From Eurosta solidaginis (taxonomy: Eukaryota > Arthropoda > Insecta > Diptera > Tephritidae), in the NCBI RefSeq assembly GCF_040869045.1, contig NC_090321.1:92052603-92116602 (forward strand): 64,000 nucleotides of DNA, given 5' to 3'. The position numbers and the translations under genes were made by a program. Numbering within the stretch: the stretch's first letter is position 1; each line of letters starts with the position of its first letter. The notes below the pieces were generated by a model. It was not told where the DNA came from. It ran no database searches and saw nothing but the letters and a program-made list of their open reading frames with translations. Shown piece by piece: positions 10,364-57,696 of the stretch.

Positions 10364-13300
10364 GTAAGGAAGGTTAAGTTCGGGTGTAACCGAACATTAC
10401 ATACTCAGTTGAGAGCTATGGTGAGAACATAAGGGAAAATAACCATGTAGGAAAATGAACCGAGGGAAACCCTGGAATGTGTTTGTATGAAATGTGTATC
10501 AAATGAAAGGCATTAAAGAGTATTTTATGAGGGAGTGGGCCATAGTTCTATAGGTGGACGCAATTTAGGGATATAGCCATAAAGGTGGATCAGGGTTGAC
10601 TCTAGAATGCGTTTGTACGATATGGGTTTTAAAAGGGAGTGGTGGTTGTGGTATAGGTGGTCGCCTTTTCGAGATATCGCCATAAAGGTGGACCAGGGGT
10701 GACTCTAGAATGCGTTTCTACGATATGGGTATCAAATGAAAGGTGTTAATGAGTATTTTAAAAGGGAGTAATCCTTAGTTCCACAGGTGGACACCGTTTC
10801 GAGATATCGCTATAAAGGTGGACCAGGGGTGACCCTAGAATTTGTTTGTACAATATGGGTATCAAAAGAAAGGTGTTAATGAGTATTTTAAAAGGGAGTG
10901 GGCCTTAGTTCTATAGGTGGACGCCGTTTCGAAATATCGCCATAAAGGTGGACCAGGGGTGACTCTAGAATGTGTTTGTACGATATGGGTATCAAATTAA
11001 TGATATTAATGAGGGTTTTAAAAGGGGGTGGTGGTTGTTGTATAGGTGGTCGCATTTTCGAGATATCGCCATAAAGGTGGACCGGGGGTGACCCTAGAAT
11101 TTGTTTGTACAATATGGGCATCAAACGAAAGGTGTTAATGAGTATTTTAAAAGGGAGTGGGCCTTAGTTCTATAGGTGGACGCCGTTTCGAAATATCGCC
11201 ATAAAGGTGGACCAGGGGTGACTCTAGAATGTGTTTGTACGATATGGGTATCAAATTAATGGTATTAGTGAGGGTTTTAAAAGGGAGTAATCCTTAGTTC
11301 CATAGGTGGACGCCGTTTCGAGATATCGCCATAAAGGTGGACCAGGGGTGACCCTAGAATTTGTTTGTACAATACGGGCATCAAACGAAAGGTGTTAATG
11401 AGTATTTTAAAAGGGAGTGGGTCTTAGTTCTATAGGTGGACGCCGTTTCGAAATATCGCTATAAAGGTGGACCATGGGTGACTCTAGAATGTGTTTGTAC
11501 GATATGGGTTTTAAAAGGGAGTGGTGGTTGTGGTATAGGTGGTCGCCTTTTCGAGATATCGCCATAAAGGTGGACCAGGGGTGACTCTAGAATGCGTTTG
11601 TACGATATGGGTATCAAATGAAAGGTGTTAATGAGTATTTTAAAAGGGAGTAATCCTTAGTTCCGTAGGTGGACGCCGTTTCGATATATCGCCATAAAGG
11701 TGGACGAGGGGTGACCCTAGAATTTGTTTGTACAATACGGGCATCAAACGAAAGGTGTTAACGAGTATTTTAAAAGGGAGTGGGCCTTAGTTCTATATGT
11801 GGACGCCGTTTCGAAATATCGCCATAAAGGTGGACCAGGGGTGACTCTAGAATGTGTTTGTACGATATGGGTATCAAATTAATGATATTAATGAGGGTTT
11901 TAAAAGGGGGTGGTGGTTGTTGTATAGGTGGTCGCATTTTCGAGATATCGCCATAAAGGTGGACCAGGGGTGACCCTAGAATTTGTTTGTACAATATGGG
12001 TATCAAAAGAAAGGTGTTAATGAGTATTTTAAAAGGGAATAATCCTTAGTTCCATAGGCGGACGCCGTTTCGAGATATCGCCGTAACGGTGGAGCAGGGG
12101 TGACCCTAGAATTTGTTTGTACAATATGGGTATGAAAAGAAAGGTGTTAATGAGTATTTTAAAAGGGAGTAATCCTTAGTTCCATAGGTGGACGCCGTTT
12201 CGAGATATCGCCATAAATTAAAGGTGTTAATGAGTATTTTTAAAAGGGAGTGCGCCTTCGTTCTCTAGGTGCTCGCCTTTTCGAGATATCGCCATAAAGG
12301 TGGACCAGGGGTGACTTTAGAATATGTTTGTACGATATGAGTATCAAATGAAAGGTGTTAATGAGTATTTTAAAAGGGCGTGTGGCTTAGTTCTATAGGT
12401 GGACGCCTTTTCGAGATATCGCCATAAAGGTGGACCAGGGGTGACTCTAGAATGAGTTTGCACGATATTGGTCTCAAATTAAAGGTATTAATGGGAGTTT
12501 TAAAAGGGAGTGGTGGTAGTTGTATATGTGAAGGCGTTTTCCAGATATCGACCAAACTGTGGACCAGGGTGACCCAGAACATCATCTCTTGGATATCGCT
12601 AATTTATTTATATATGTAGTACCTGCCAAGATTTTAAGGGTTTTTTATTTCGCCCTGCAGAACTTTTTCATTTTCTTCTACTTAATATGGTAGGTGTCAC
12701 AACCATTTTATAAAGTTTTTTCTAAAGTTATATTTCGCGTCAATAAAACAATCCAATTACCTTACCATGTTTCGTCCCGTTTTTCGTATTTGGTATAGAA
12801 TTATGGCATTTTTTTCATTTTTCGTAATTTTCGATATCGAAAAAGTGGGCGTGGTCATAGTCGGATTTGGTTCATTTTTCATACCAAGATAAAGTGAGTT
12901 CAAGTAAGCACGTGAACTAAGTTCATTAAAGATATGTCGATTTTTGCTCAAGTTATCGTGTTAACGGCCATGCGGAAGGACAGACGGACGACTGTGTATA
13001 AAAACTGGGCGTGGCATCAACCGATTTCGCTCATTTTCACAGAAAACAGTTAGCGTCATAAAATCTATGCCCCTACCAAATTTCAAAAGGATTGGTTAAT
13101 TTTTGTTCGACTTATGGCGTTAAAAGTATCCTAGACAAATTAAATGAAAAAGGGCGGAGCCACGCCCATTTTGAAATTTTCTTTTATTTTTGTATTTTTT
13201 TGCACCATATCATTACTGCAGTTGAATGTTGACATAATTTACTTATATACTGTAAAGATATTAAATTTTTTGTTAAAATTTTACTTAAAAAAATTTTTTT

Positions 13301-17021: not shown

Positions 17022-20000
17022 GTAAAAATTAATTCTTGATTTATTAGTTTGTTTTATAGTAAAAATCGTAAAGAAAAATCACTAAATTTGCACATGCCGA
17101 TGGCTACTAGTAAATGTTTTTGAATATCAATTCTTCATCAATTAGCTTTCGGGTACAATATTTTGAACACGACATCACCTACATTCATACTGGTTTAAGG
17201 GCATATGCCTCTATCCACACAGCCATTTGAATGCCCAGCCGCTGTGGCGTTGTTATCGGATTCTGAAGTATTATCCTAGTTTTAATATCTAGCTTTAAGG
17301 GAAGTTGCTCAAAAATCGGTTACAAGACATGTTCTAAACAAGCTTTCTAATTATCTCGGTCCCTCTCGCATCTAGAAAACTCTTTTATCCAAAATGGTAC
17401 CACCTAACCGAGTCCGAGCTTTGTTCAAAGTTCCAGGTCTCTGAGTTATCGGGAAGTTCCTAAAAAATCGAAAGAAACACGTAGATTCCAATCGTCGTGC
17501 GTGACACCGCTGTCTCCATATAAATACTCTGGACATCGGTTACATGGACGCCGTTTCCGCTCTTGCAGAAGTTTGCTCTGCTATGGAATATTAACATACG
17601 ATCACGGATCGAAAACGGGTTTCACACAAGTGATAAAAATAAGACTATCCAATTATTTAATAAAATAAAAATATATTATGGATTTTGTGAGTACGCGTTG
17701 TCCCTAGTTCACATTTTTTATTAATCCAATTCACCATTTCGGAGCTATAGCAATTTAAAAACGGCATTCGATCACGGATCGTATGTAATGATTCGGTCCC
17801 TGGACTTAAAACATTCCTTCTGTCGCCGAATTCTGTGGTCAAATTTCGAAGCATTATTCTTGATTGCTAGCAGTTGAAATTCTTCGCAGTCATACCTTTT
17901 TGCCCTTACTTTTTTCTTACTCTAAAGGCATCCCGCTTCCCTTTTCAACTTACGGTACGGTTATACACACTCTTCCTGTTAGGTTCACTTTTACTGTCGC
18001 TCTGTAGGCAGCGGCTTCTTTTCGGTTGTCACGATCCATTCTTCATAGTACCAGTCGTTTTTTCATGTTTGCCGGTAACCAATTTTTTCCTCGTCACTGC
18101 TCCTGTATTCCGTCGGTTTGACTTGTGCTGTCTGATGGCAGGTGGAGCAGGTGTGAGAGTCGAAGTGGGCAGTCATTGGCAATCGTTGCGATTGCAACCT
18201 TTCGATGTCTAACTTTCGCTGTGTTTTTTGTATCATGCAGTCGATGTTAGTTCTTCGAATCGAGCACACATCTAAAGCACTGGAGGCATGCTGTCCCGTC
18301 TCTTGAATGGCGCTGATCTGCTTGAACAGCATGCCAAAGAATCGCTCTGGCCATTCCCTGATTTTTGTCGGTCAGAATCTTTCCCCGCTTGAGTGGACTT
18401 CTACACACGGCTTCCATTCGGTTGTGGAGATATTGAATTTTTCTCACCCACCCGCTCTGTTATCGTATATGAAAATAAGCTAACAAATTTTAAGGTGGTT
18501 TTCATCGAAGAATAGAAATAACCAGATTGAAAAACAACAAGGCCGTGGGCGCTGATGCATTGCCTGCGGAGCTATTCAAGTACGGTGGCGAGGAGTTGGT
18601 AAGGCGCATGCAGCAGCTTCTTAGCAAAATATGGGCGGACGAGTGCATGCCCGACGGTTGGAATCTAAGTGTTCTTTGCCCAGTCCACAAGAAGGGTGAT
18701 ACTGCAAAATGCACCAACTATCGTGGAATCAGCCTTCTTAATATCGCATATAAGGTCTTTTCAAGTGTATTGTGCGAAAGATTGAAGTCCACCGTGAACC
18801 GGCTGATTGGACCTTATCAGTGCGGCTTCAGACCTGGTAAATCTACCATCGACCAGATTTTCACAATGCGCAAAATCTTGGAAAAAACCCGTGAAAAGAG
18901 AATCGACACCCATTACCTCTTCGTCGACTTTAAAGCCGCCTTCGACAGCACGAAAAGGAGCTGCCTATATGCCGCTATGTCTGAATTTGGTTTCCCCGCA
19001 AAACTTATACGGCTGTGCAAAATGACGTTGAGCAACACCATCAGCTCAGTCAGAATTGGGAAGGACCTCTCCGAGCCGTTCGAAACTAAACGAGGTTTCA
19101 GACAGGGTGACCCCCTATCGTGCGATTTCTTTAATTTGATGCTGGAGAAAATTATACTAGCTGCAGAACTTAACCGCACTGGAACAATATACTATAAAAG
19201 CGTGCAATTACTGGCATATGCTGATGACATTGATATCATCGGCCTAAACACCCACGCTGTTAGTTCTGCTTACTCCAAGCTGGAAAAAGAAGCGGTAAAG
19301 ATGGGTTTGATGGTGAATGAGGACAAAACGAAGTACCTGCTGTCATCGAGCAAAGAGTCAGCGCATATGCGCCTTGGCAACCACGCTACTGTTGGCAGCC
19401 ATAATTTCGAAATAGTAAAAGACTTCGTTTATTTGGGAACCAGCATCAACACTAGCAACAACATCAGCACTGAAATCCAGCGAAGAATCAATCTTACCAA
19501 TAAATGCTACTTTGGACTAGGTAGGCAATTGAAAAGTCCTCTCTCGGCGAACGAAAATCATACTCTACAAGTCACTTATCGTACCCGTCCTGCTATATTG
19601 GGCAGAAGCATGGACCATGACAACAGCAGATGAAGCGGCTTTGGGAGTGTTCGAGAGGAAAGTTCTTTGAAAGATTCATGGACCTCTACGCGTTGGCGAT
19701 GGCGAGTACCGAAGAAGATTTAATGATGAGCTGTAAGAGCTATACGCAGACATCAACATAGTCTAGCGAATTAAACCGCAGCGGCTGCGCTGGCTAGGCC
19801 ATGTTATGCGAATGAATGATGATGCTCCGGCCAAGAAAGTGTTTCTATCGGAACCCGCCTATGGAATCAGAGGTAGAGGGCGACCCCCACTCCGTTGGAA
19901 GGACCAGGTGGAAAACGATTTAAACTCCCTTGGTGTGACCAATTGGCCTTGTTGGACGGCCATAACCGTTTAGACGGTTAAGCGCCAATTAAGTAAGTAA

Positions 20001-23000
20001 TTAATTAATTAATTTACCAGGTCTGAAGCCGCACTGATAAAGTCCAATCAGCCGGTTCACCGTGGGCTTCAATCTTTCGCACAATACACTTGAAAGGACC
20101 TTATATGCGATATTAAGAAGGCTGATTCCACGATAGTTGGTGCATTTTGCAGTATCCCCCCTCCTGTGGACTGGGAAAAGAACACTTAGATTCCAACCGT
20201 CGGTCATGCACTCTTCCGCCCATATTTGCTAAGAAGCTGCAGCATGCGCCTTACCAACTCCTCGCCGCCGTACTTGAATAGCTCCGCAGGCAATCCATCA
20301 GCGCCCACGGCCTTGTTGTTTTTCAATCTGGTTATTGCTATTCTAACTTCGTCATAATCAGGCGGGGGACATATATTCCATCATCATCGTTTGCGGTATC
20401 GGGTTCTTCATCTCTGCCACGTGAATCGCTACCTCCATTTAGGAGAGCAGAGAAGTGTTCCCTCCATAATCTAAGCACTCTCTGGACATCAGTTACAAGG
20501 TCGCCGTTTTCGTTCCTACAGGAGTTTGCCCCGGTCTTAAAACCCTTCCGTCTGTCGCCGTATTTTTTGGTAAAATTTTCGGGCTTTATTCCTGGTGGCT
20601 AGTAGCTCAAGCTCCTCGCACTCACGCCTTTCTGCTTCTGCTTTTTTTTTCCTGAAAAGGCGTCTCGCTTCCCTTTTCAACTCACGATAGCGTTCACACG
20701 CTCCTCTTGTTGCGCTCGCTTTTAACGTTGCCCTGTAGGCAGCGTCTTTTCTTTCGTGGCCGCCGGTAACCAATTTTTTCCTCGGCGGCAGTACGAAGTG
20801 CTTGGAGATATGCTCCCACTGCTCCTGTATTCCTTCAGGTGGAGTTGTGCTCTCAGAGAGCAGGCGTGAGAGTCGAGTTGCGAAATCATTGGCAGTCTGT
20901 TGTGATTGAAGCTTTTCGACGTCTAGCTTTCCCTGTGTTTTTTGTTCCTTGATTTTAGCCGCGCTGAGGCGGGTGCGTATTTTGGCTGCAACGAGATAAT
21001 GGTCCGAGTCGATGTTAGGCCCTCGGATCGTGCGCAAATCTAAAACACTGGAGGCATGCCGCCCGTCTATCACAATGTGATCGATCTGATTGCGAGTATT
21101 TCGGTCAGGTGACAGCCATGTAGCTTGATGTACTTTTTTTGCATGAACCTCATGCTGGATATGACCATGTTTCGAGCACCGGCAAAATCAATCAGCCTCA
21201 GTCCGTTAGGAGAAGTTTCATTGCGTAGGCTGAACTTTCCGACTGTGGGGCCAAAAACACCTTCTTTGCCCACCCTGGAATTAAAGTCGCCAAGCACGAC
21301 TTTTATATCATGACGGGGGCAGCGCTTGTATGTGCGTTCTAATTGTTCATAAAAAGTGTCTTTCAACTCATCGTCTTTCTCCTCTGTCGGCGCTGGGCGC
21401 AGATGAATGATATATTAAAAAATTTGCCTTTATTCGGATAGCGGCGAGACGCTCGTCCACAGGCGTGAACGCCAGAACTTGGCGACGAAGTCTCTCTCCC
21501 ACCACGAATCCGACGCCGAAACTGCGCTTATTCGTATGGCCACTCCAGTAGATGTCACAATTTTTGATCTTCTTTCTTCCTTTCTTCGTCCAACGCATTT
21601 CTTGGGAGGCGGTGATGTCAGATTTTGCTTTGACGAGCACATCAACCAGCCGAGCATCTGCACCAATCCCATTCAGGGAGCGGACGTTCCAGGTGCATGC
21701 CCTCAATTCATTGTCCTTCAAACGTTTGCCATGGTCGTCATCAATAGAGAGTGTATTTATCCGAGGCTTGTTGGTATATTTCATTGGAGTATGGTTTTAC
21801 GTGGCGGGACCCAAGCCCAGCGCACAACCCGCTCAGCGGGGGTGAAAATATTACTTGCGAGCCGCTTGCTTCAAGACAGACGCCCGCTTGCAGCCGCACC
21901 TAGAGGTTTACAGTGCCGATGAGATCTCCCCGGCTAGCCCTTAAACCGATTATGTCAGAGTGGCCTAGCCAGGTTGTCGCCTTCTCACATTAGCTCACCG
22001 CTAAACACCCAGAGAATACTTAGCGACCGGCAGTAGTGAGCTGCTTGAACCGCATGCAAAAGAATCGCTCTGGCCATTCCCAGGTGAATGGCGGTTAGAA
22101 GCTTTCCCCACTTTCGTGGACTTCTACACACGGCTCCAACCTCCGTTTTCTTTTGAATTTTATGTACGTATACGTTAGATCTCATGCATAGGCTCAAAAA
22201 GCATGAATTCTACTTATTCCCGATGATTAGTATTGCCGGAATGCGCTTCTGTGGCTTTTCCTAACGTTCACATGTTGTTGAAAATTTTGTGTACGCTTCC
22301 AGTAACAACGGCAACGAACGAGAGTTATTTTTCAACTCTTAGGCTGATTAAAAACTATTTGAGAAACGCGATGAGAGAAAATCGATTGAATGGCTGTGCA
22401 TCACTAAGCATCCACGGTGATCAAATTGTTACCGTGGATGAAGTTTTAGATGAAATGACAAAGAAAAGCCGACGCATGCGCTTAAGTTTTTAATGTAACC
22501 TATTTCATATCATATTCTAAATACACGTACTTTAATGTTAAAGCTAAAGACAACATTTTTTTATTTCTTTGACTGAAAAAAAAAAAATTTTTTTTTGAAG
22601 TGGTTTGACTCAATTGTATTTTTTCTTGTGTATATTGAAAAAGATTCTAATTTTATCCCATTTACAGGTCTCCCATTTATATTTAATACAAACCGCAAGC
22701 TCATTAACTGGACAATTCCCGATGATAATTGGGAAATACAAGCAGCTCCGAGAAGCATTACACCACTTCTAGAGCTGAGAAAATTCCCGAATCACACAAA
22801 TCCTGAACCTGGTCAAAGTGATGAAGCATTTCTCGAACGTTTGCGCCAGATGAAACGGAATAATACGATGGCCCGAATGCTTTGGTATGACACTACCCCC
22901 GATGGCCTTATTTATCCACCTTTCGTGGATAAGGCGCTTAAACTATTTAATCTGAAACAGGTGGCATTCGAGATCGAAAACAGCGTCATGTCCAAAGTGT

Positions 23001-26000
23001 CTTGTACAGCTTGCAAAGCCGGCGCTGGACTACTACAGCACTACATTCGTGCTGGCAAAACAAAAGCGGAGATAATCAAACTCATTTATGAATTCTGCGT
23101 AAATTTGAATATTCAAAGTCCACGCGTTTGTGAGGGCGTGTCCACACTATTTGGTAGTGAAGTTATTTACGTGTTGCAACGCGTAAACCTTGGACCAGAC
23201 GAGATTTGTAGCTTCGTAATAGGTGATGCATGTGGTGATGTGTATAATCCCTATCACGAGTGGGAAGTGATATTCCCTCCGGTACCAAAGCCACCTGTTG
23301 CAGAGTTAAGTATACCAAAAGAGGCGGCACCATTTTTCAAAGTCCTTCATATCTCAGATACTCATTACGATCCGCATTATGTAGAAGGTTCTAATGCGAA
23401 TTGCAATGAACCATTATGCTGTCGTCTTAGTAGCGGACGGCCCTCCAATCCAAATGAAGCCGCTGGTAAGTGGGGAGACTACCGCAAATGTGATACGCCT
23501 AAGCGTACCGTGGACAATATGTTGGAGCACATAGCCGATACACATAAGGATATTGATTATATATTATGGACGGGAGATTTGCCACCTCACGATGTTTGGA
23601 ATCAGACAAAGGCAGAGAATTTGGAGATCATAAAGGAAACAGTGCGTCAAATGACTGAAAAGTTTCCAGGTGTACCTATATTCCCAGCTTTAGGAAATCA
23701 CGAAAGCGCACCTGTGAATAGTTTTCCACCACCCTATGTGAATCAGGTAGACATTTCGATATCATGGCTATACGATGAGTTGGATGTGCAATGGCGTCGT
23801 TGGTTGCCACAAAGTGTTTCACATACTGTGCGACGTGGTGCCTTCTATTCGGTATTGGTGCGGCCAGGCTTTCGTATCATTTCTCTAAATATGAATTACT
23901 GTAATAACAAGAATTGGTAAGTGCTATTGCGATGCAGAGAAATCTTTTAAATTGAGTTTTATAATTCTTTGTCCTACAGGTGGCTTCTTCTAAACTCCAC
24001 AGACCCTGCAACAGAACTTCAATGGTTCATTTATGAATTACAAAGTGCTGAATTTTCCAATGAAAAAGTACACGTGATAGGTCATATACCACCAGGCCAT
24101 CCAGATTGTTTGAAGGTTTGGTCACGTAATTTCTACCGCATTATATCACGCTATGAGGGCACCATAAGTGCACAATTTTACGGTCACACGCATTTTGATG
24201 AGTTCGAGATGTTTTATGATCCACATGATTTAGGTGAGTAGGATAACTGCTCTCTTCAGGTTTTCTGATAATTACTTACAACTTAATTGTTTCCCTTACA
24301 GGCCACCCTACAAGCATTGCGTATATTGGTCCATCAGTTTCTCCTTATTATGACCTGAATCCGGGCTATCGAATTTATTATGTAGATGGTGATCACGACA
24401 CTACCACACGCCTTGTTGTGGATCATGAGTCTTGGATTATGAATTTGAAAGAGGCCAACCTATACGACTATCCGATTTGGTACAAGTTATATACCACACG
24501 TACAGCATATAACATGAAAGCACTGCGACCGACGGATTGGAATAATTTGATCGATGAGATGGCCAATAACCAGGAGTTGTTTGATTTATATTATAAGTAA
24601 GTTTTTGCAACGCAGATGCGAATAATCGTAAGCTAACTCTGAACCATGTTTAAAGGAAACTTTTTGTATTAAAATTTTTCAAGGCTGTGAGCCATTAAAA
24701 AGATTCAGGTAAATGCATTTTTGTTGAAAGCTTTTCGTGATGGTATTGGAGAGATACACTCGTTTGTCTTGCCAAACTCGAGGTGCGAACTTGTTAGGAA
24801 CAAATTTTCTGAAGTATATTTGATGAGACTTGTCCAAAGGCTTGAACCTGGGACCTGGCATGGTACCTAATTTAAATGGTGCAAATATATTAACGAGCAA
24901 CGGCTTACCCTGAGTCGAATTGTATTTTATTGTTATGCAAATCAGCATGAAGACACTTGTTCTATGAGCTGAGCAACTCACGAATACGGCAGCTAAACAT
25001 AAGCCTTATTTGGGTACATAGTCGCAGGAACATTGAGGGCAATAAGGAACCAGTCAAAAATGCAAGGGCAGGGGCTCTACTGAATTCTGTGGAGGCGGTC
25101 GAGAGGCATCATCAACTCAATCCACAGAAACATACATTCCATTCTCTGCTCTTACACAAACTCAACCGGTTAGGCTTTCCTCCTTTATTTCTCTCTTGGT
25201 TTTCTTCTTATTTGAATAAACGTAAACAAACAGTTATTTTTAACAACTGTTGGTTCAAATTTATCAATGTATCTTCTGGTGTTCCACAAGGTAGCCATCT
25301 TGGGCCAGTGTTATTCCTACTATTCATTAACGACCTACCAAGTGTTTTGAAGCACTGTAAGCCGTTGATGTATGCGGATGAAATGAGACTTATTATGCCT
25401 ATCCGCTATCCTCTGGTGAGCACTTCTTCAGTTGGATCTAAACAGCCTAGTTGTATGGTGTAATGCTAACCTCATGTCACTAAACCTTCCGAAGTGTAAG
25501 TTCATAGGTTTCACACCGAAAACCTTTAATTCCCATGAGTATATGATTGGAGATTATTTTATTATGCAAGTTACCAACTTCACTGACCTAGGTGTTACAA
25601 TGAACCCTAAGCTTGACTTTAGGTTACATATAGAAACTTTCGTTAATAGGGCTAAAGGTACTTTGGCGTTCGTGAAAAGGTGGTCTAAGTAATTTAATGA
25701 TCCGTACGTTACTAAAACTCTGTTTACATCATTGGTGAGGCCAATATTCGAATATGCTTCGATAATCTGGAGCCCACGTTATCAAATTCACTGCGATAAA
25801 CTGGAATCCGTCCAAAAACAGTTTTTACTTTTTGCTTTGAAACACTTTCCATGGGACACGTCAAGGAATCTTCCCCCGTACTGCAGTGCAGCCGGTTAAA
25901 ACTATTACAGTTGCCTACATTACAGGGCCGTAGGGAGATGCTTAATGTCTTATTTATGGTAAAACTCTTAAGAGGGATGATAGCTAGCCCATTTCTGCTT

Positions 26001-35467: not shown

Positions 35468-36655
35468 CTATTTCCGTCCAATTGGCCCTTTACATGTGCA
35501 GAGGTCAACCGTGGCCTTACGGACATGCTCCGTGGTGTTTTGTGTCCAGTTCAGTTTCTTATAAAGTGTGAGCCCTAGATAGTTGGCAGACTCACTCATC
35601 TTTAGCACTGTGTTCGCAAGCACCGGAGTTGAGAGAGTTGGTATCATATACCTCCTCGTAAAAAGCACCAGTTCCGTTTTATTTGGGTTTACGATCAGAC
35701 CATTATCAACGGCCCATACTTCTATCCTTCTTAGTTCCACCTGCATCATATCGCAGATTGTTTGTGGAAACTTCCCACTTATCACCAAGGCAAGGTCATC
35801 AGCATACGCTATAGCTTTACAGACCCTCCCCTCCTCCATGTCCTTAAGCAGCTGATTCACCGCCAAGACCCACAGTAGAGGGAATAGGACTCCACATTAG
35901 GGAGTTCCCCTACTGACGAACCTGCTCACCGATACCCCTGCAAGGTCTGCCTGTACTACCCTGCATATCAGCAATTGGTGCACAAGCTCCACCAGCTGAG
36001 ATTCGATGGCCAGATCAGTCAGTACCTTAGTGATTGAGTCAGGTTTGATGTTATTTAATGCTCCTTCTATGTCTCGGAAGGCTGCCAGGCAGTATTCCTC
36101 GAAGGAGAACGATCTCTCTATGCACTATGTAATTTCGTGCAATGCCGTTTCCGTTGATTTACCCTTCATATAGGCATGTTGTGCTTCGGAGAGTTGGTCA
36201 TTCACTGCCTCTCTGATATATGTTTCCATCAGCCCCTCCATCACCTTTAGTTGAAACGAAGATAGGCTGATGGGTCTGAAGTCCTTACGTTTCGCGTGGC
36301 ACGTTTTGCCTGCCTTGGAAATAAATACCACTTCAGATCTTTTCCGTATACGTGGGATATGGTTCAGTGCCACAATACCTCCTATTATAGCGTATAGCCA
36401 GTTAGTGCTGCATTCCAGTGATTGCTGCAGTTGTATAGGTGTAACTCCGTCTGGCCCTGGAGTTTTGAATGGTTCAAAAGATTGGATGACCCAAGGTATC
36501 TTATCTCTTGTAATTAGGTTATGCAGTATAGGTTGCGCTGTTACTTGTTTCGAGCCTGGTTCGTTCCTACTTGCACCTGGAAAATGTGTATTCAGCAGTA
36601 GGTAGAGGGTTTCACCCTCCCCTGTTTCGGTCCACGAACCATCAGGCCTTTGCAA
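35468..36655 (-). pseudogene. LINE reverse transcriptase domain, frameshifted
   Basis: It carries FKTPGPDGVTPIQLQQSLEC, KDFRPISLSSFQLKVMEGLM, QHAYMKGKSTETALHEIT, a short gap with a frame break at 36125-35866, then AIAYADDLALVISGKFPQTI with the catalytic YADD intact, and VNPNKTELVLFTRRY. RT motif order is complete. Confidence 0.85.
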
Positions 36656-42708: not shown

Positions 42709-42720
42709 ATTGTGTACATT
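42709..42720 (+). repeat. 12-bp direct repeat ATTGTGTACATT, left edge of the array
   Basis: The same 12 bases occur at 48611-48622, immediately outside the right edge of the inverted array. The last TT may also belong to the first repeat unit. It behaves as a target-site duplication of the whole 5.9-kb structure. Confidence 0.7.
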
Positions 42721-45700
42721 TGTATGATTTTTAATAATCGGGGATTGCCCATATTGCTTTTTTTAAATGTATGAAAACATTTATTTGAAGCAATTTTTTT
42801 AATTTTATAATTTATTTAATAATTTGGGAAAAATTTAAACAACGTGACATCAGGACGGACAAGGCGACAGCTGTTTCGATTATACCTTGTAAATCTCTTC
42901 AAAGCCTTTTCTCCCGGGAGTGGGAGTCGAACTCGCACCCCTACGATAGTTGAAATGGTTGTAAACGCATTCAGCTACGTCATGCCTGTTGTGAAGTCTT
43001 TCCCAATTGCCTTCTTTTTGCATATTTTAATCTTTTACACATTGCATACTTCGTATGCAATTATGTGTTAAAGCTATGCTTGGTACGGCGGTTTTCAAAG
43101 AAACTTTGGTTTTGTTGTTGTTTTCGTTCTATTTATAGAACTACAACGAATTAACCAATTTTGTCTGTTTGTATGATTTTTAATAATCGGGGATTGCCCA
43201 TATTGCTTTTTTTAAATGTATGAAAACATTTATTTGAAGCAATTTTTTTAATTTTATAATTTATTTAATAATTTGGGAAAAATTTAAACAACGTGACATC
43301 AGGACGGACAAGGCGACAGCTGTTTCGATTATACCTTGTAAATCTCTTCAAAGCCTTTTCTCCCGGGAGTGCGAGTCGAACTCGCACCCCTACGATAGTT
43401 GAAATGGTTGTAAACGCATTCAGCTACGTCATGCCTGTTGTGAAGTCTTTCCCAATTGCCTTCTTTTTGCATATTTTAATCTTTTACACATTGCATACTT
43501 CGTATGCAATTATGTGTTAAAGCTATGCTTGGTACGGCGGTTTTCAAAGAAACTTTGGTTTTGTTGTTGTTTTCGTTCTATTTATAGAACTACAACGAAT
43601 TAACCAATTTTGTCTGTTTGTATGATTTTTAATAATCGGGGATTGCCCATATTGCTTTTTTTAAATGTATGAAAACATTTATTTGAAGCAATTTTTTTAA
43701 TTTTATAATTTATTTAATAATTTGGGAAAAATTTAAACAACGTGACATCAGGACGGACAAGGCGACAGCTGTTTCGATTATACCTTGTAAATCTCTTCAA
43801 AGCCTTTTCTCCCGGGAGTGGGAGTCGAACTCGCACCCCTACGATAGTTGAAATGGTTGTAAACGCATTCAGCTACGTCATGCCTGTTGTGAAGTCTTTC
43901 CCAATTGCCTTCTTTTTGCATATTTTAATCTTTTACACATTGCATACTTCGTATGCAATTATGTGTTAAAGCTATGCTTGGTACGGCGGTTTTCAAAGAA
44001 ACTTTGGTTTTGTTGTTGTTTTCGTTCTATTTATAGAACTACAACGAATTAACCAATTTTGTCTGTTTGTATGATTTTTAATAATCGGGGATTGCCCATA
44101 TTGCTTTTTTTAAATGTATGAAAACATTTATTTGAAGCAATTTTTTTAATTTTATAATTTATTTAATAATTTGGGAAAAATTTAAACAACGTGACATCAG
44201 GACGGACAAGGCGACAGCTGTTTCGATTATACCTTGTAAATCTCTTCAAAGCCTTTTCTCCCGGGAGTGGGAGTCGAACTCGCACCCCTACGATAGTTGA
44301 AATGGTTGTAAACGCATTCAGCTACGTCATGCCTGTTGTGAAGTCTTTCCCAATTGCCTTCTTTTTGCATATTTTAATCTTTTACACATTGCATACTTCG
44401 TATGCAATTATGTGTTAAAGCTATGCTTGGTACGGCGGTTTTCAAAGAAACTTTGGTTTTGTTGTTGTTTTCGTTCTATTTATAGAACTACAACGAATTA
44501 ACCAATTTTGTCTGTTTGTATGATTTTTAATAATCGGGGATTGCCCATATTGCTTTTTTTAAATGTATGAAAACATTTATTTGAAGCAATTTTTTTTAAT
44601 TTTATAATTTATTTAATAATTTGGGAAAAATTTAAACAACGTGACATCAGGACGGACAAGGCGACAGCTGTTTCGATTATACCTTGTAAATCTCTTCAAA
44701 GCCTTTTCTCCCGGGAGTGGGAGTCGAACTCGCACCCCTACGATAGTTGAAATGGTTGTAAACGCATTCAGCTACGTTATGCCTGTTGTGAAGTCTTTCC
44801 CAATTGCCTTCTTTTTGCATATTTTAATCTTTTACACATTGCATACTTCGTATGCAATTATGTGTTAAAGCTATGCTTGGTACGGCGGTTTTCAAAGAAA
44901 CTTTGGTTTTGTTGTTGTTTTCGTTCTATTTATAGAACTACAACGAATTAACCAATTTTGTCTGTTTGTATGATTTTTAATAATCGGGGATTGCCCATAT
45001 TGCTTTTTTTAAATGTATGAAAACATTTATTTGAAGCAATTTTTTTAATTTTATAATTTATTTAATAATTTGGGAAAAATTTAAACAACGTGACATCAGG
45101 ACGGACAAGGCGACAGCTGTTTCGATTATACCTTGTAAATCTCTTCAAAGCCTTTTCTCCCGGGAGTGGGAGTCGAACTCGCACCCCTACGATAGTTGAA
45201 ATGGTTGTAAACGCATTCAGCTACGTCATGCCTGTTGTGAAGTCTTTCCCAATTGCCTTCTTTTTGCATATTTTAATCTTTTACACATTGCATACTTCGT
45301 ATGCAATTATGTGTTAAAGCTATGCTTGGTACGGCGGTTTTCAAAGAAACTTTGGTTTTGTTGTTGTTTTCGTTCTATTTATAGAACTACAACGAATTAA
45401 CCAATTTTGTCTGTTTGTATGATTTTTAATAATCGGGGATTGCCCATATTGCTTTTTTTAAATGTATGAAAACATTTATTTGAAGCAATTTTTTTAATTT
45501 TATAATTTATTTAATAATTTGGGAAAAATTTAAACAACGTGACATCAGGACGGACAAGGCGACAGCTGTTTCGATTATACCTTGTAAATCTCTTCAAAGC
45601 CTTTTCTCCCGGGAGTGGGAGTCGAACTCGCACCCCTACGATAGTTGAAATGGTTGTAAACGCATTCAGCTACGTCATGCCTGTTGTGAAGTCTTTCCCA

Positions 45701-45796
45701 ATTGCCTTCTTTTTGCATATTTTAATCTTTTACACATTGCATACTTCGTATGCAATTATGTGTTAAAGCTATGCTTGGTACGGCGGTTTTCAAAGA
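42721..45796 (+). repeat. Left arm of inverted array: about 6.9 tandem copies of a 449-bp unit
   Basis: The unit starts TGTATGATTTTTAATAATCG at 42721, 43170 and so on, with a period of 449 bp (one copy is 450 by an extra T in a poly-T run near 44590). Copies are almost identical; visible differences are a G-to-C near 43372 and a C-to-T near 44778. Each unit holds an AT-rich part, a tRNA-like segment on the minus strand, a hairpin ATTGCATAC-TTC-GTATGCAAT, a TTGTTGTTGTT run and a hairpin GTTCTATTTATAGAAC. The 75-codon open frame in every unit is just the repeat read in one frame. Confidence 0.95.
42914..42986 (-). promoter_or_regulatory. tRNA-like Pol III promoter (A and B boxes), first left-arm unit
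   Basis: On the minus strand the A-box-like TAGCTGAATGCG (42977-42966) is followed 43 bases later by B-box GAGTTCGACTC (42934-42924), matching the GWTCRANNC core. The spacing equals that of a real tRNA. The segment recurs every 449 bp in the left arm. A cloverleaf does not form: the acceptor ends do not pair and only 3 of 5 T-stem pairs hold. It is best read as a tRNA-derived promoter, not a tRNA gene. Predicted transcription is leftward, away from the array centre. Confidence 0.65.
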
Positions 45797-45800
45797 CTCC
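45621..45800. other. Centre of the inverted array, asymmetric switch point
   Basis: The left arm runs to ...GGTTTTCAAAGA and switches at 45795-45796 to the right arm, which begins GACTCCCACTCCCGGG. The shared GA is the only microhomology. The right arm starts at a different unit position from where the left arm ends, so a folded hairpin would have a loop of roughly 175-190 bases. Confidence 0.8.
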
Positions 45801-48610
45801 CACTCCCGGGAGAAAAGGCTTTGAAGAGATTTACAAGGTATAATCGAAACAGCTGTCGCCTTGTCCGTCCTGATGTCACGTTGTTTAAATTTTTCCCAAA
45901 TTATTAAATAAATTATAAAATTAAAAAAATTGCTTCAAATAAATGTTTTCATACATTTAAAAAAAGCAATATGGGCAATCCCCGATTATTAAAAATCATA
46001 CAAACAGACAAAATTGGTTAATTCGTTGTAGTTCTATAAATAGAACGAAAACAACAACAAAACCAAAGTTTCTTTGAAAACCGCCGTACCAAGCATAGCT
46101 TTAACACATAATTGCATACGAAGTATGCAATGTGTAAAAGATTAAAATATGCAAAAAGAAGGCAATTGGGAAAGACTTCACAACAGGCATGACGTAGCTG
46201 AATGCGTTTACAACCATTTCAACTATCGTAGGGGTGCGAGTTCGACTCCCACTCCCGGGAGAAAAGGCTTTGAAGAGATTTACAAGGTATAATCGAAACA
46301 GCTGTCGCCTTGTCCGTCCTGATGTCACGTTGTTTAAATTTTTCCCAAATTATTAAATAAATTATAAAATTAAAAAAATTGCTTCAAATAAATGTTTTCA
46401 TACATTTAAAAAAAGCAATATGGGCAATCCCCGATTATTAAAAATCATACAAACAGACAAAATTGGTTAATTCGTTGTAGTTCTATAAATAGAACGAAAA
46501 CAACAACAAAACCAAAGTTTCTTTGAAAACCGCCGTACCAAGCATAGCTTTAACACATAATTGCATACGAAGTATGCAATGTGTAAAAGATTAAAATATG
46601 CAAAAAGAAGGCAATTGGGAAAGACTTCACAACAGGCATGACGTAGCTGAATGCGTTTACAACCATTTCAACTATCGTAGGGGTGCGAGTTCGACTCCCA
46701 CTCCCGGGAGAAAAGGCTTTGAAGAGATTTACAAGGTATAATCGAAACAGCTGTCGCCTTGTCCGTCCTGATGTCACGTTGTTTAAATTTTTCCCAAATT
46801 ATTAAATAAATTATAAAATTAAAAAAATTGCTTCAAATAAATGTTTTCATACATTTAAAAAAAGCAATATGGGCAATCCCCGATTATTAAAAATCATACA
46901 AACAGACAAAATTGGTTAATTCGTTGTAGTTCTATAAATAGAACGAAAACAACAACAAAACCAAAGTTTCTTTGAAAACCGCCGTACCAAGCATAGCTTT
47001 AACACATAATTGCATACGAAGTATGCAATGTGTAAAAGATTAAAATATGCAAAAAGAAGGCAATTGGGAAAGACTTCACAACAGGCATGACGTAGCTGAA
47101 TGCGTTTACAACCATTTCAACTATCGTAGGGGTGCGAGTTCGACTCCCACTCCCGGGAGAAAAGGCTTTGAAGAGATTTACAAGGTATAATCGAAACAGC
47201 TGTCGCCTTGTCCGTCCTGATGTCACGTTGTTTAAATTTTTCCCAAATTATTAAATAAATTATAAAATTAAAAAAATTGCTTCAAATAAATGTTTTCATA
47301 CATTTAAAAAAAGCAATATGGGCAATCCCCGATTATTAAAAATCATACAAACAGACAAAATTGGTTAATTCGTTGTAGTTCTATAAATAGAACGAAAACA
47401 ACAACAAAACCAAAGTTTCTTTGAAAACCGCCGTACCAAGCATAGCTTTAACACATAATTGCATACGAAGTATGCAATGTGTAAAAGATTAAAATATGCA
47501 AAAAGAAGGCAATTGGGAAAGACTTCACAACAGGCATGACGTAGCTGAATGCGTTTACAACCATTTCAACTATCGTAGGGGTGCGAGTTCGACTCCCACT
47601 CCCGGGAGAAAAGGCTTTGAAGAGATTTACAAGGTATAATCGAAACAGCTGTCGCCTTGTCCGTCCTGATGTCACGTTGTTTAAATTTTTCCCAAATTAT
47701 TAAATAAATTATAAAATTAAAAAAATTGCTTCAAATAAATGTTTTCATACATTTAAAAAAAGCAATATGGGCAATCCCCGATTATTAAAAATCATACAAA
47801 CAGACAAAATTGGTTAATTCGTTGTAGTTCTATAAATAGAACGAAAACAACAACAAAACCAAAGTTTCTTTGAAAACCGCCGTACCAAGCATAGCTTTAA
47901 CACATAATTGCATACGAAGTATGCAATGTGTAAAAGATTAAAATATGCAAAAAGAAGGCAATTGGGAAAGACTTCACAACAGGCATGACGTAGCTGAATG
48001 CGTTTACAACCATTTCAACTATCGTAGGGGTGCGAGTTCGACTCCCACTCCCGGGAGAAAAGGCTTTGAAGAGATTTACAAGGTATAATCGAAACAGCTG
48101 TCGCCTTGTCCGTCCTGATGTCACGTTGTTTAAATTTTTCCCAAATTATTAAATAAATTATAAAATTAAAAAAATTGCTTCAAATAAATGTTTTCATACA
48201 TTTAAAAAAAGCAATATGGGCAATCCCCGATTATTAAAAATCATACAAACAGACAAAATTGGTTAATTCGTTGTAGTTCTATAAATAGAACGAAAACAAC
48301 AACAAAACCAAAGTTTCTTTGAAAACCGCCGTACCAAGCATAGCTTTAACACATAATTGCATACGAAGTATGCAATGTGTAAAAGATTAAAATATGCAAA
48401 AAGAAGGCAATTGGGAAAGACTTCACAACAGGCATGACGTAGCTGAATGCGTTTACAACCATTTCAACTATCGTAGGGGTGCGAGTTCGACTCCCACTCC
48501 CGGGAGAAAAGGCTTTGAAGAGATTTACAAGGTATAATCGAAACAGCTGTCGCCTTGTCCGTCCTGATGTCACGTTGTTTAAATTTTTCCCAAATTATTA
48601 AATAAATTAT
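45797..48610 (-). repeat. Right arm of inverted array: about 6.3 copies of the same 449-bp unit, opposite orientation
   Basis: Six complete reverse-complement units follow a partial one that starts in mid-unit at CTCCCACTCCCGGGAG. Units repeat every 449 bp (for example GCATACGAAGTATGC at about 46111, 46560, 47009, 47458, 47907 and 48356). The arm ends within a unit at AAATTAT, directly against the right-hand 12-bp repeat. Identity to the left arm appears nearly perfect. Confidence 0.95.
46183..46343 (+). ncRNA. Predicted Pol III transcript of a right-arm unit (about 160 nt)
   Basis: A box TAGCTGAATGCG at 46195-46206, B box GAGTTCGACTC at 46238-46248, and a first run of five T (46339-46343) that could terminate Pol III. 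Transcription would start about 12 bases upstream of the A box and run rightward, away from the centre. The same set repeats in all complete right-arm units. Prediction only; no expression evidence is available. Confidence 0.4.
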
Positions 48611-48622
48611 ATTGTGTACATT
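48611..48622 (+). repeat. 12-bp direct repeat ATTGTGTACATT, right edge of the array
   Basis: Identical to 42709-42720. It lies directly after the end of the right arm. Confidence 0.7.
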
Positions 48623-56823: not shown

Positions 56824-57696
56824 CTATGTGGATATCATTGCGTAACTCATGGGTGAAAATCCCGTACTCCTTGGATCATCTACTGGCAGTTCTTTGTACG
56901 GGCCTTCGCAACTGCACCAAATGGATGGAACAACTTTCCGCCGGTGAGGGTTGCATAACAGCACAAAATTTCCCTCCAAGAAACCTTCCGAATTATTGTT
57001 CTTGTCGTACCTGTGTTTCATCCTACTACTCATTATCCTGGACCGTTCACCCACACTCTGTTGTTTGGCCAATGAACTACTTCGCAGAGCTTGATCTTGA
57101 CGGTTCACCACAGTAGTGCGCCCTGGCTTGAAACCAGCCTTGCATTCTTTCTGCGAAATTCTCTCCTTCATTTTAGTTCGTCTATTTCGGTTTGTCAATG
57201 CAAGTTTTCTTCCCGCAGGTACCTTCGCTATTGATTTGTGTGTTCCGTTCGTTTCACTAATCTTTGCCCGGCCTTCTGGCTTTGACTTTCGTGGTCTTTG
57301 TCGAGTCTCCTCCACCAGCACTCGCTTACTGCTGAACCCTTGTTTAAAACTGAAGTAAAGTGGCACATCCATGTTCTTATACTGCATAATCCTTCTCTGC
57401 ATATCGATCCTGATGTCATAGTCAACTAAGAAATCCACTCCTAATATGACTTCATCAACGATCTCTGCCACAACGAATTTGTGTAGATCCATGACCTTCC
57501 CAATTACGACTTCACTTACCACTTCTCCCTGGACTTGGTTATATTCGCCAGTAACCGTACGCAATCTTGCTCCAGGTAATAGCTTTACTCTCCTGTTGAC
57601 CACATCAGGTCGTATTAAAGAATGAGATGCGCCCGTATTTACAGTCAGTACACGCTCGATTTTCTTCCCATTTGCGAGATAGAGATTATGGCGCAT
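56824..57696 (-). pseudogene. gypsy-type pol remnant: protease fused to integrase C-terminus
   Basis: A 290-codon open frame begins with a retropepsin-like domain (VNTGASHSLIRPDVVNRRVK, with NTGA in place of DTGA/S, and the second motif VILGVDFL). It continues through a basic linker and ends with the integrase C-terminal GPY/F-type segment (SSRMKHRYDKNNNSEGFLEG, NFVLLCNPHRRK, CEGPYK). Reverse transcriptase, RNase H and the integrase catalytic core, normally in between, are absent, yet the frame stays open. It is an internal deletion of an LTR element, not a working pol. The Asp-to-Asn change in the protease active-site triplet is a further sign of inactivity. Confidence 0.8.

Follow-up and report, generated by a model that had tools for sequence, protein, structure and literature searches.

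The sequence analyzed here is a window of 64,000 nucleotides from the tephritid fly Eurosta solidaginis (C3:92052603-92116602 in the 1.91-Gb genome, G000), which contains at 42709..48622 an inverted array built from a 449-bp unit. Tandem Repeats Finder (TRF) resolved two abutting arrays of period 449, at 42719-45796 (6.9 copies) and 45795-48611 (6.3 copies), and comparison with a reference unit (sense 1-449, 46005..46453, plus strand) found unit anchors on both strands, seven in one orientation (with starts from 42719 to 45414) and six in the other (45980 to 48225), with full units 99.3-100% identical to the reference. By these measures the left arm (42719..45796, minus strand) consists of 6.85 units with the sense, tRNA-bearing strand running left and its outer end at a unit position referred to here as site A, and the right arm (45795..48610, plus strand) of 6.3 units with the sense strand running right and its outer end at a second position, site B. 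In the TRF and unit alignments the arms meet in a head-to-head centre junction with a 2-bp overlap (45795..45796), where the left arm ends at sense 67 and the right arm at sense 240, in the B box/T-arm. The sequence ATTGTGTACATT occurs exactly at 42709-42720 and 48611-48622, without any other mismatch-free copy in the window, and one extra base extends this direct repeat to 13 bp (TATTGTGTACATT). Both the opposed arrays of near-identical units and the 12-bp repeat shared by the two outer edges, as given in the preliminary description, were confirmed. An open reading frame (ORF) scan of the array found none of at least 150 aa.

When the two flanks were joined with a single copy of the direct repeat and compared with the genome, the sequence matched uninterrupted across the joint at all of the places scored (40/40, the best of 1547 candidates, 96-99% identity, with query positions 18-234 aligned in most of them). 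The flanks are part of a high-copy repeat, and these 40 matches are paralogous empty sites. The direct repeat (left copy 42709..42720, right copy 48611..48622) is therefore a target-site duplication, and the array is a genuine insertion, as its target-site-like flanks had led the preliminary description to suppose.

The unit has 220 matches in the genome (the best 40 of 143 candidate places were scored), and 27 regions around the listed matches gave 25 loci, or 26 with the window. At 22 of these 26 loci the family is two-armed, with the sense strand of the left arm running left and that of the right arm running right, so that each element points outward. An inversion produced by assembly was rejected as the source of the array and is very unlikely, because the same architecture recurs at 22/26 loci with different flanks. 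An exact duplication of at least 11 bp was found by a common-substring rule in 21 of 24 elements (range 11-21 bp, commonest 13), compared with 4 of 552 mismatched flank pairs under the identical rule; the elements on C6 and at L021 were outside this test. A mobile element made of a SINE-like monomer, as inferred in the preliminary description, is supported by the duplications and empty sites.

A core 31-mer of the unit, allowing at most one mismatch, occurs 10,984 times in the genome (5235 + 5749 on the two strands), and its reversed control does not occur. A similarity search of the genome with a 179-nt segment covering the tRNA-like part and the core gave no match even though that segment is present many times, which the abundance of the core probably explains. 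The first 100 core matches listed, all exact and from C1 1.4-36.3 Mb, formed 65 clusters at 3 kb, namely 43 single copies, 14 mixed and 8 same-direction clusters, and all 14 mixed clusters were outward and none inward. A 30-mer at site A, searched with the same tolerance, occurs 884 + 1011 times, and 7/7 mixed clusters among its first 100 listed matches were likewise outward. Since the core count exceeds the 1,895 copies of the site-A 30-mer, the core may be common to other subfamilies or under constraint. Three miniatures (L048, L049 and L050), taken as close minus/plus pairs from 10 such clusters in the genomic-order list, are head to head with less than one unit per arm and carry duplications of 12, 12 and 13 bp. 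Because even these miniature two-armed copies are flanked by duplications, the inverted form is probably the basic product and the arrays its long version. Three single core matches (L051-L053) are older, and a clear duplication was not found at these three.

Two interrupted elements were also observed. At L015/L016 (C5:75147600-75193700) a 46-kb block divides one element with an 8-bp unit-position overlap, as if by nested insertion, and at L017/L018 (C1:280785235-280786774) a 1.5-kb insert lies within the left arm with a 5-bp overlap. On C6 (L034, L036 and L037, C6:171434000-171448500) the two arms contain about 28 and 3 units, which follow a roughly 10-unit higher-order period; arms can therefore lengthen after insertion, and satellite-type exchange is a likely route for the later growth of some arrays.

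Within the unit, a tRNA-like segment (sense 182-256, 46186..46260, plus strand) carries A-box-like (46195-46206) and B-box-like (46239-46249) sequences, which we take as such by eye from the box consensus. ARAGORN called no tRNA in the array, and the tRNA-derived RNA polymerase III (Pol III) promoter named in the preliminary description is treated here as putative. Downstream, a descriptor search picked out a hammerhead-like motif (sense 260-307, 46264..46311, plus strand) with three stems, comprising stem I AAGGC/GCCTT, core T-TTGAAGA, stem II GATT/AATC, GAAA, a palindromic CAGCTG, and the TC cleavage context. The descriptor, which was composed after the motif had been seen, found it in 0/1000 shuffles at equal tolerance and in 2/1000 with one more mismatch. 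Two modules of the form ATTATTAAA-N7 lie directly before site B (46349..46366, plus strand, sense ~361) and site A (46434..46453, plus strand, sense ~444-449), which from the element ends are putative starts of reverse transcription; the 9-mer would be expected 0.008 times per 449 nt, and the modules were noticed only after the two sites had been seen. The unit is best read as resembling short interspersed elements (SINEs) and retrozymes, with a putative RNA form and putative ribozyme activity. An old diverged copy at L012 (8092-8370) joins a short antisense fragment and a sense fragment head to head, and its core is better conserved than its tRNA-like head.

The outer ends of the elements cluster at just these two places in the unit, site A at unit 1-12 in antisense numbering and site B at 80-120, mostly 80-96. 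One A end was paired with one B end in 19 of 20 classifiable elements among 21 (p = 2e-5), a count that omits L026, where the two outer ends come from separate elements, and that becomes 20/21 with it. Narrowing site B to 80-96 left 17/18 elements with one end of each kind, and L013 has two B ends. This pairing is unexpected if the ends were chosen independently or were terminal inverted repeats. As the two outer ends lie at different places in the unit, they do not form terminal inverted repeats, which leaves a foldback transposon unsupported.

In 13 of 21 centre junctions the arm alignments overlapped, by 1-9 bases in 12 and by 21 bases in L032. Junctions were scattered over the unit, and whole-unit tests did not reject uniformity; measured round the unit, the centre positions of the two arms lay 5 to 221 nt apart, with no enrichment of small differences. 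Arm ends crowded at sense 225-250, in the T-arm of the tRNA-like part (14/48, where 2.8 were expected; 8/42 without the three miniatures), in a window picked after looking. Locus-specific variants are common to both arms in L020 (whose full units have an insertion at unit 79-84), in L015/16 (a 9+T variant that also occurs at L033) and in the second L026 element (a variant block). The nearest neighbour of 148 of 168 units, ties included, lies in the same locus, and mean unit divergence was 0.0037 within an arm, 0.0030 between opposite arms of one locus, and 0.0056 for units of different loci; L009 is an exception to this uniformity. Because variants are shared across the arms, a single template per insertion is likely, and this could have been a circle or a multi-unit linear RNA.

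Penelope elements of the same genome served as a yardstick for this anatomy. A genome search for GIY-YIG gave 37 matches, and seven places were fetched. For family 1, an 844-codon open frame at L038 contains reverse transcriptase (RT) and GIY-YIG domains. Six loci of this family were fetched, and the four that could be read at both ends (L038, L040, L041 and L044) all point outward from a head-to-head centre; their duplications measure 13, 15, 13 and 11 bp, and one end halts at CACAG(ATA) while the other continues through a tail of ~30 nt. L039 is also head to head, incomplete within the fetched stretch. Family 2, represented by L042 and the ends of L045 and L047, has at L042 a 731-codon frame with the same two domains; L042 also bears a terminal copy in inverted orientation, is flanked by a 16-bp duplication and is tailed at one end. 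Combining both families, one tailed and one untailed end were found in 5/5 loci with both ends readable, and a CTGANGA...GAAA hammerhead-type core was present in the sequences examined from both. An Rfam search on L038 brought no gain, as its better matches fell on the palindromic junction. The 449-bp unit itself lacks the RT and GIY-YIG ORF found in L038 and L042. The unit family and the Penelope elements of this genome thus have matching insertion anatomy, in the outward head-to-head arms, the duplications and the one-sided tail.

We consider it likely that the array is the insertion of a non-coding, non-autonomous passenger of Penelope-type machinery, with a putative helper family. In the proposed mechanism, a multi-unit RNA, linear or circular, would be transcribed from existing units via the tRNA-like promoter or by read-through. 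Both strands of an AT-rich target would be cut, usually with an offset of 11-18 bp, as implied by the duplications and empty sites, by an enzyme for which we propose the Penelope-type reverse transcriptase/GIY-YIG endonuclease. The 3′ ends of the cut strands would then serve as primers on the RNA, with one start at site A and a second at site B, as the end positions suggest. Priming is placed at both target strands because the A and B ends are paired, and with these two starts both cDNAs would therefore proceed toward the 5′ end of the RNA. Copying across several units, or round a circle, would yield the tandem arms, which would join head to head at the variable places shown by the junctions and leave outward-pointing arms with non-identical ends; long arms may grow later by unequal exchange, as on C6. 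Any double-stranded RNA from the array would be a consequence of this structure and not its cause.

The scheme has a biochemical counterpart in PAc, a purified Poseidon protein that cuts and extends both target strands in vitro, prefers 5′-ATT-3′ and initiates internally at two positions, between which an optional tail lies (PMC11167929, 2024). The end pairing, duplication length and geometry of the 449-bp family fit the PAc scheme. More tentatively, it is possible that a SINE-class element with a tRNA promoter parasitises Penelope rather than long interspersed elements (LINEs), through a dimeric enzyme, one RNA with two starts and a circular template. Such a dimeric Penelope enzyme would prime both nicked strands at once, circling the RNA to give tandem arms, and the frequent arm stops in the T-arm would perhaps reflect a tRNA-type base modification.

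A number of observations weigh against Penelope-type insertion of the unit or narrow its basis. Four of the 26 loci (L021, L022, L025 and L031) show one orientation only, one arm of L024 and of L030 is merely ~40 nt long, and L026 consists of two adjoining two-armed elements of different subfamilies, with an inward change between them. L009 has one end that is neither A nor B, and mixes two to four unit classes in an order that is nearly mirrored from the centre. Only the L050 miniature ends cleanly, at B and A; L048 ends at 449 (A) and 339 and L049 at 433 and 368, merely near the sites. Duplications of at least 11 bp were not found at L025 (~9 bp by eye), L026 and L031, none was found when looked for on C6 and at L021, and those of L023 and L028 are of low complexity. 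Element ends were placed by hand, and nick boundaries are blurred by shared bases. In the Penelope yardstick, L043 shows copies of a single orientation within the fetched stretch.

A base-by-base comparison of 20 duplications of the 449-bp family showed T enriched on both strands at +2 to +4 after the nick (79/120, where nearby flanks have 0.348), at positions picked after looking. This motif is compatible with Penelope cutting but does not prove it, because the nicks of four Penelope family-1 elements gave T at only 11/24 (p = 0.18), with no clear T-rich motif. The untailed start of family 2 matches site A at 26/33 ungapped positions, the best of 449 offsets (next 19/33), with coinciding start points, and the L045 copy matches it at 81% over 32. 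The alignment score was equalled by 176/2000 and 233/2000 shuffles and is not significant, the 33-nt window came from the very alignment tested against shuffles, and the likeness counts as support because of its position only. The whole unit has no overall homology to Penelope; for family 1, 670/1000 shuffles scored as high. The hammerhead-like core is deviant, with one extra T, and the canonical core is lacking; Rfam searches gave no hammerhead (no match on the array, and three weak matches to unrelated families on 201 nt of the unit), and the old copy at L012 carries changes within the motif. On the sense strand a T5 run at 335 and a T4 run at 391 precede sites B and A and should stop Pol III there, so that Pol III alone would probably not produce the template RNA.

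The main alternative is mobilisation of the unit, in the manner of ordinary SINEs, by a LINE with an APE-type endonuclease, the inversions then resulting from L1-style twin priming. The duplication lengths would suit LINEs, as would the A-rich sites at both ends and the tRNA-like head, the window holds an RT ORF other than Penelope, and the T-rich nick motif is not clearly present in Penelope family 1. However, twin-priming inversions are a minority of L1 insertions, whereas in this family inversion is the rule, and APE-type cuts are followed by A, whereas the bases after the nick are mostly T on both strands. The Penelope copies of the same genome have the same anatomy as the unit, a comparison in which no LINE search was made. 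We regard a LINE helper as unlikely, though it is the strongest of the competing explanations.

Self-priming, in which one target-primed cDNA folds back and primes the second arm, was proposed for rotifer Penelope in the Discussion of PMC3846280. In its favour, the two arms of L009, followed outward from the junction, begin with the same units (X Y (Y) Z), and the crowding of arm ends falls in the near-palindromic T-arm. However, a second outer end that is also a start site (A/B) is not predicted by this route, and the separation of the arms' centre positions, without enrichment of small differences, does not suit a hairpin. Hairpin self-priming was rejected as the main route on the grounds that these positions are not close, and we consider it improbable, more so than a LINE helper.

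Drosophila foldback (FB) and Galileo elements have inverted tandem-repeat arms between direct repeats, with transposase-type identical ends and duplications of fixed length, 9 or 7 bp. The general look of the array is that of such a DNA transposon with long inverted tandem-repeat ends, and the preliminary description had proposed a new foldback-type mobile element grown from a SINE-like monomer. Of that proposal, the mobility, the SINE-like character, the duplications and the empty sites held, whereas the foldback type did not: 19 of 20 classifiable elements end at two unlike places of the unit, the 21 duplications have no fixed length but range between 11 and 21 bp, and junction positions and arm lengths vary freely. 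A foldback transposon, which would require a transposase tolerant of unlike ends, was rejected because of those ends and the variable duplications, and we give it very little credence. Equally remote is a plain satellite whose copies would have dispersed as extrachromosomal circles or through unequal exchange and have chance flanks. The long one-direction arm and higher-order period on C6 would suit this explanation, but it was rejected for the dispersed copies given the duplications, the empty sites of the array, the outward geometry and the 43 single core copies among 65 clusters.

The unit shares features with several known systems. Metazoan retrozymes are described in PMC7229834 as small tandem repeats with type I hammerhead ribozymes, for which a circular RNA was proposed as template and Penelope as a candidate helper. 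Like the unit described here, they are non-coding tandem units of a few hundred bp with duplications longer than 4 bp (PMC7229834). The unit differs from them in its head-to-head inverted arms, its tRNA-like promoter and its deviant, putative hammerhead-like motif, and the word “Inverted” is absent from the main text of PMC7229834. Penelope and Poseidon elements have, according to PMC3846280 and PMC11167929, the same head-to-head copies, duplications, optional tail on one end and AT-rich targets, in contrast to which the unit is only 449 bp long and has no RT or endonuclease ORF.

With tRNA-derived SINEs the unit shares the A/B-box-like promoter, high copy number and dispersal with duplications. 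It departs from them in its Penelope-like rather than LINE-like insertion anatomy and its inverted, often tandem copies, and a 3′ tail shared with a LINE, a feature of SINEs, was not shown for the unit, no LINE search having been made. The Sm-alpha/W elements of Schistosoma are repeats of SINE-like character that combine a Pol III promoter and a canonical hammerhead. The passages of PMC8490949 on these elements do not describe the outward inverted insertion geometry seen in the unit.

Retrozymes with a proposed Penelope helper and head-to-head Penelope copies were already known, the latter with self-priming as the explanation put forward in 2013 (PMC3846280). What appears new is a SINE-like unit with a tRNA promoter and two-ended insertion; no report of inverted SINE-like arrays inserted by Penelope was found among the titles and abstract openings listed in searches of the open-licence literature. 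The origin of the head-to-head Penelope arrangement is unsettled between self-priming, as discussed in PMC3846280, and cutting and extension of two strands (PMC11167929). Given its 10,984 near-exact core copies, the 449-bp family could supply very many readable insertion events, each recording paired start sites, nick sites and a centre junction, with ends and duplications legible even in short copies, and it makes this open question of Penelope insertion directly testable. If Penelope-type machinery does insert the unit, SINE-like parasites would not be limited to LINE helpers.

Other features of the window lie outside the array. A related 130-bp tandem repeat, with multiples, forms two arrays at 3-700 and 10627-12573. 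Retroelement remnants are present at 18527-19633 (plus strand), 36125-36655 (minus strand) and 56824-57696 (minus strand), represented by two RT matches, one of them sub-threshold, and one sub-threshold gag-asp protease match. An ORF at 22595-23920 (plus strand) has a Metallophos match and a sub-threshold SapB match, and presumably resembles part of an acid sphingomyelinase-type gene.

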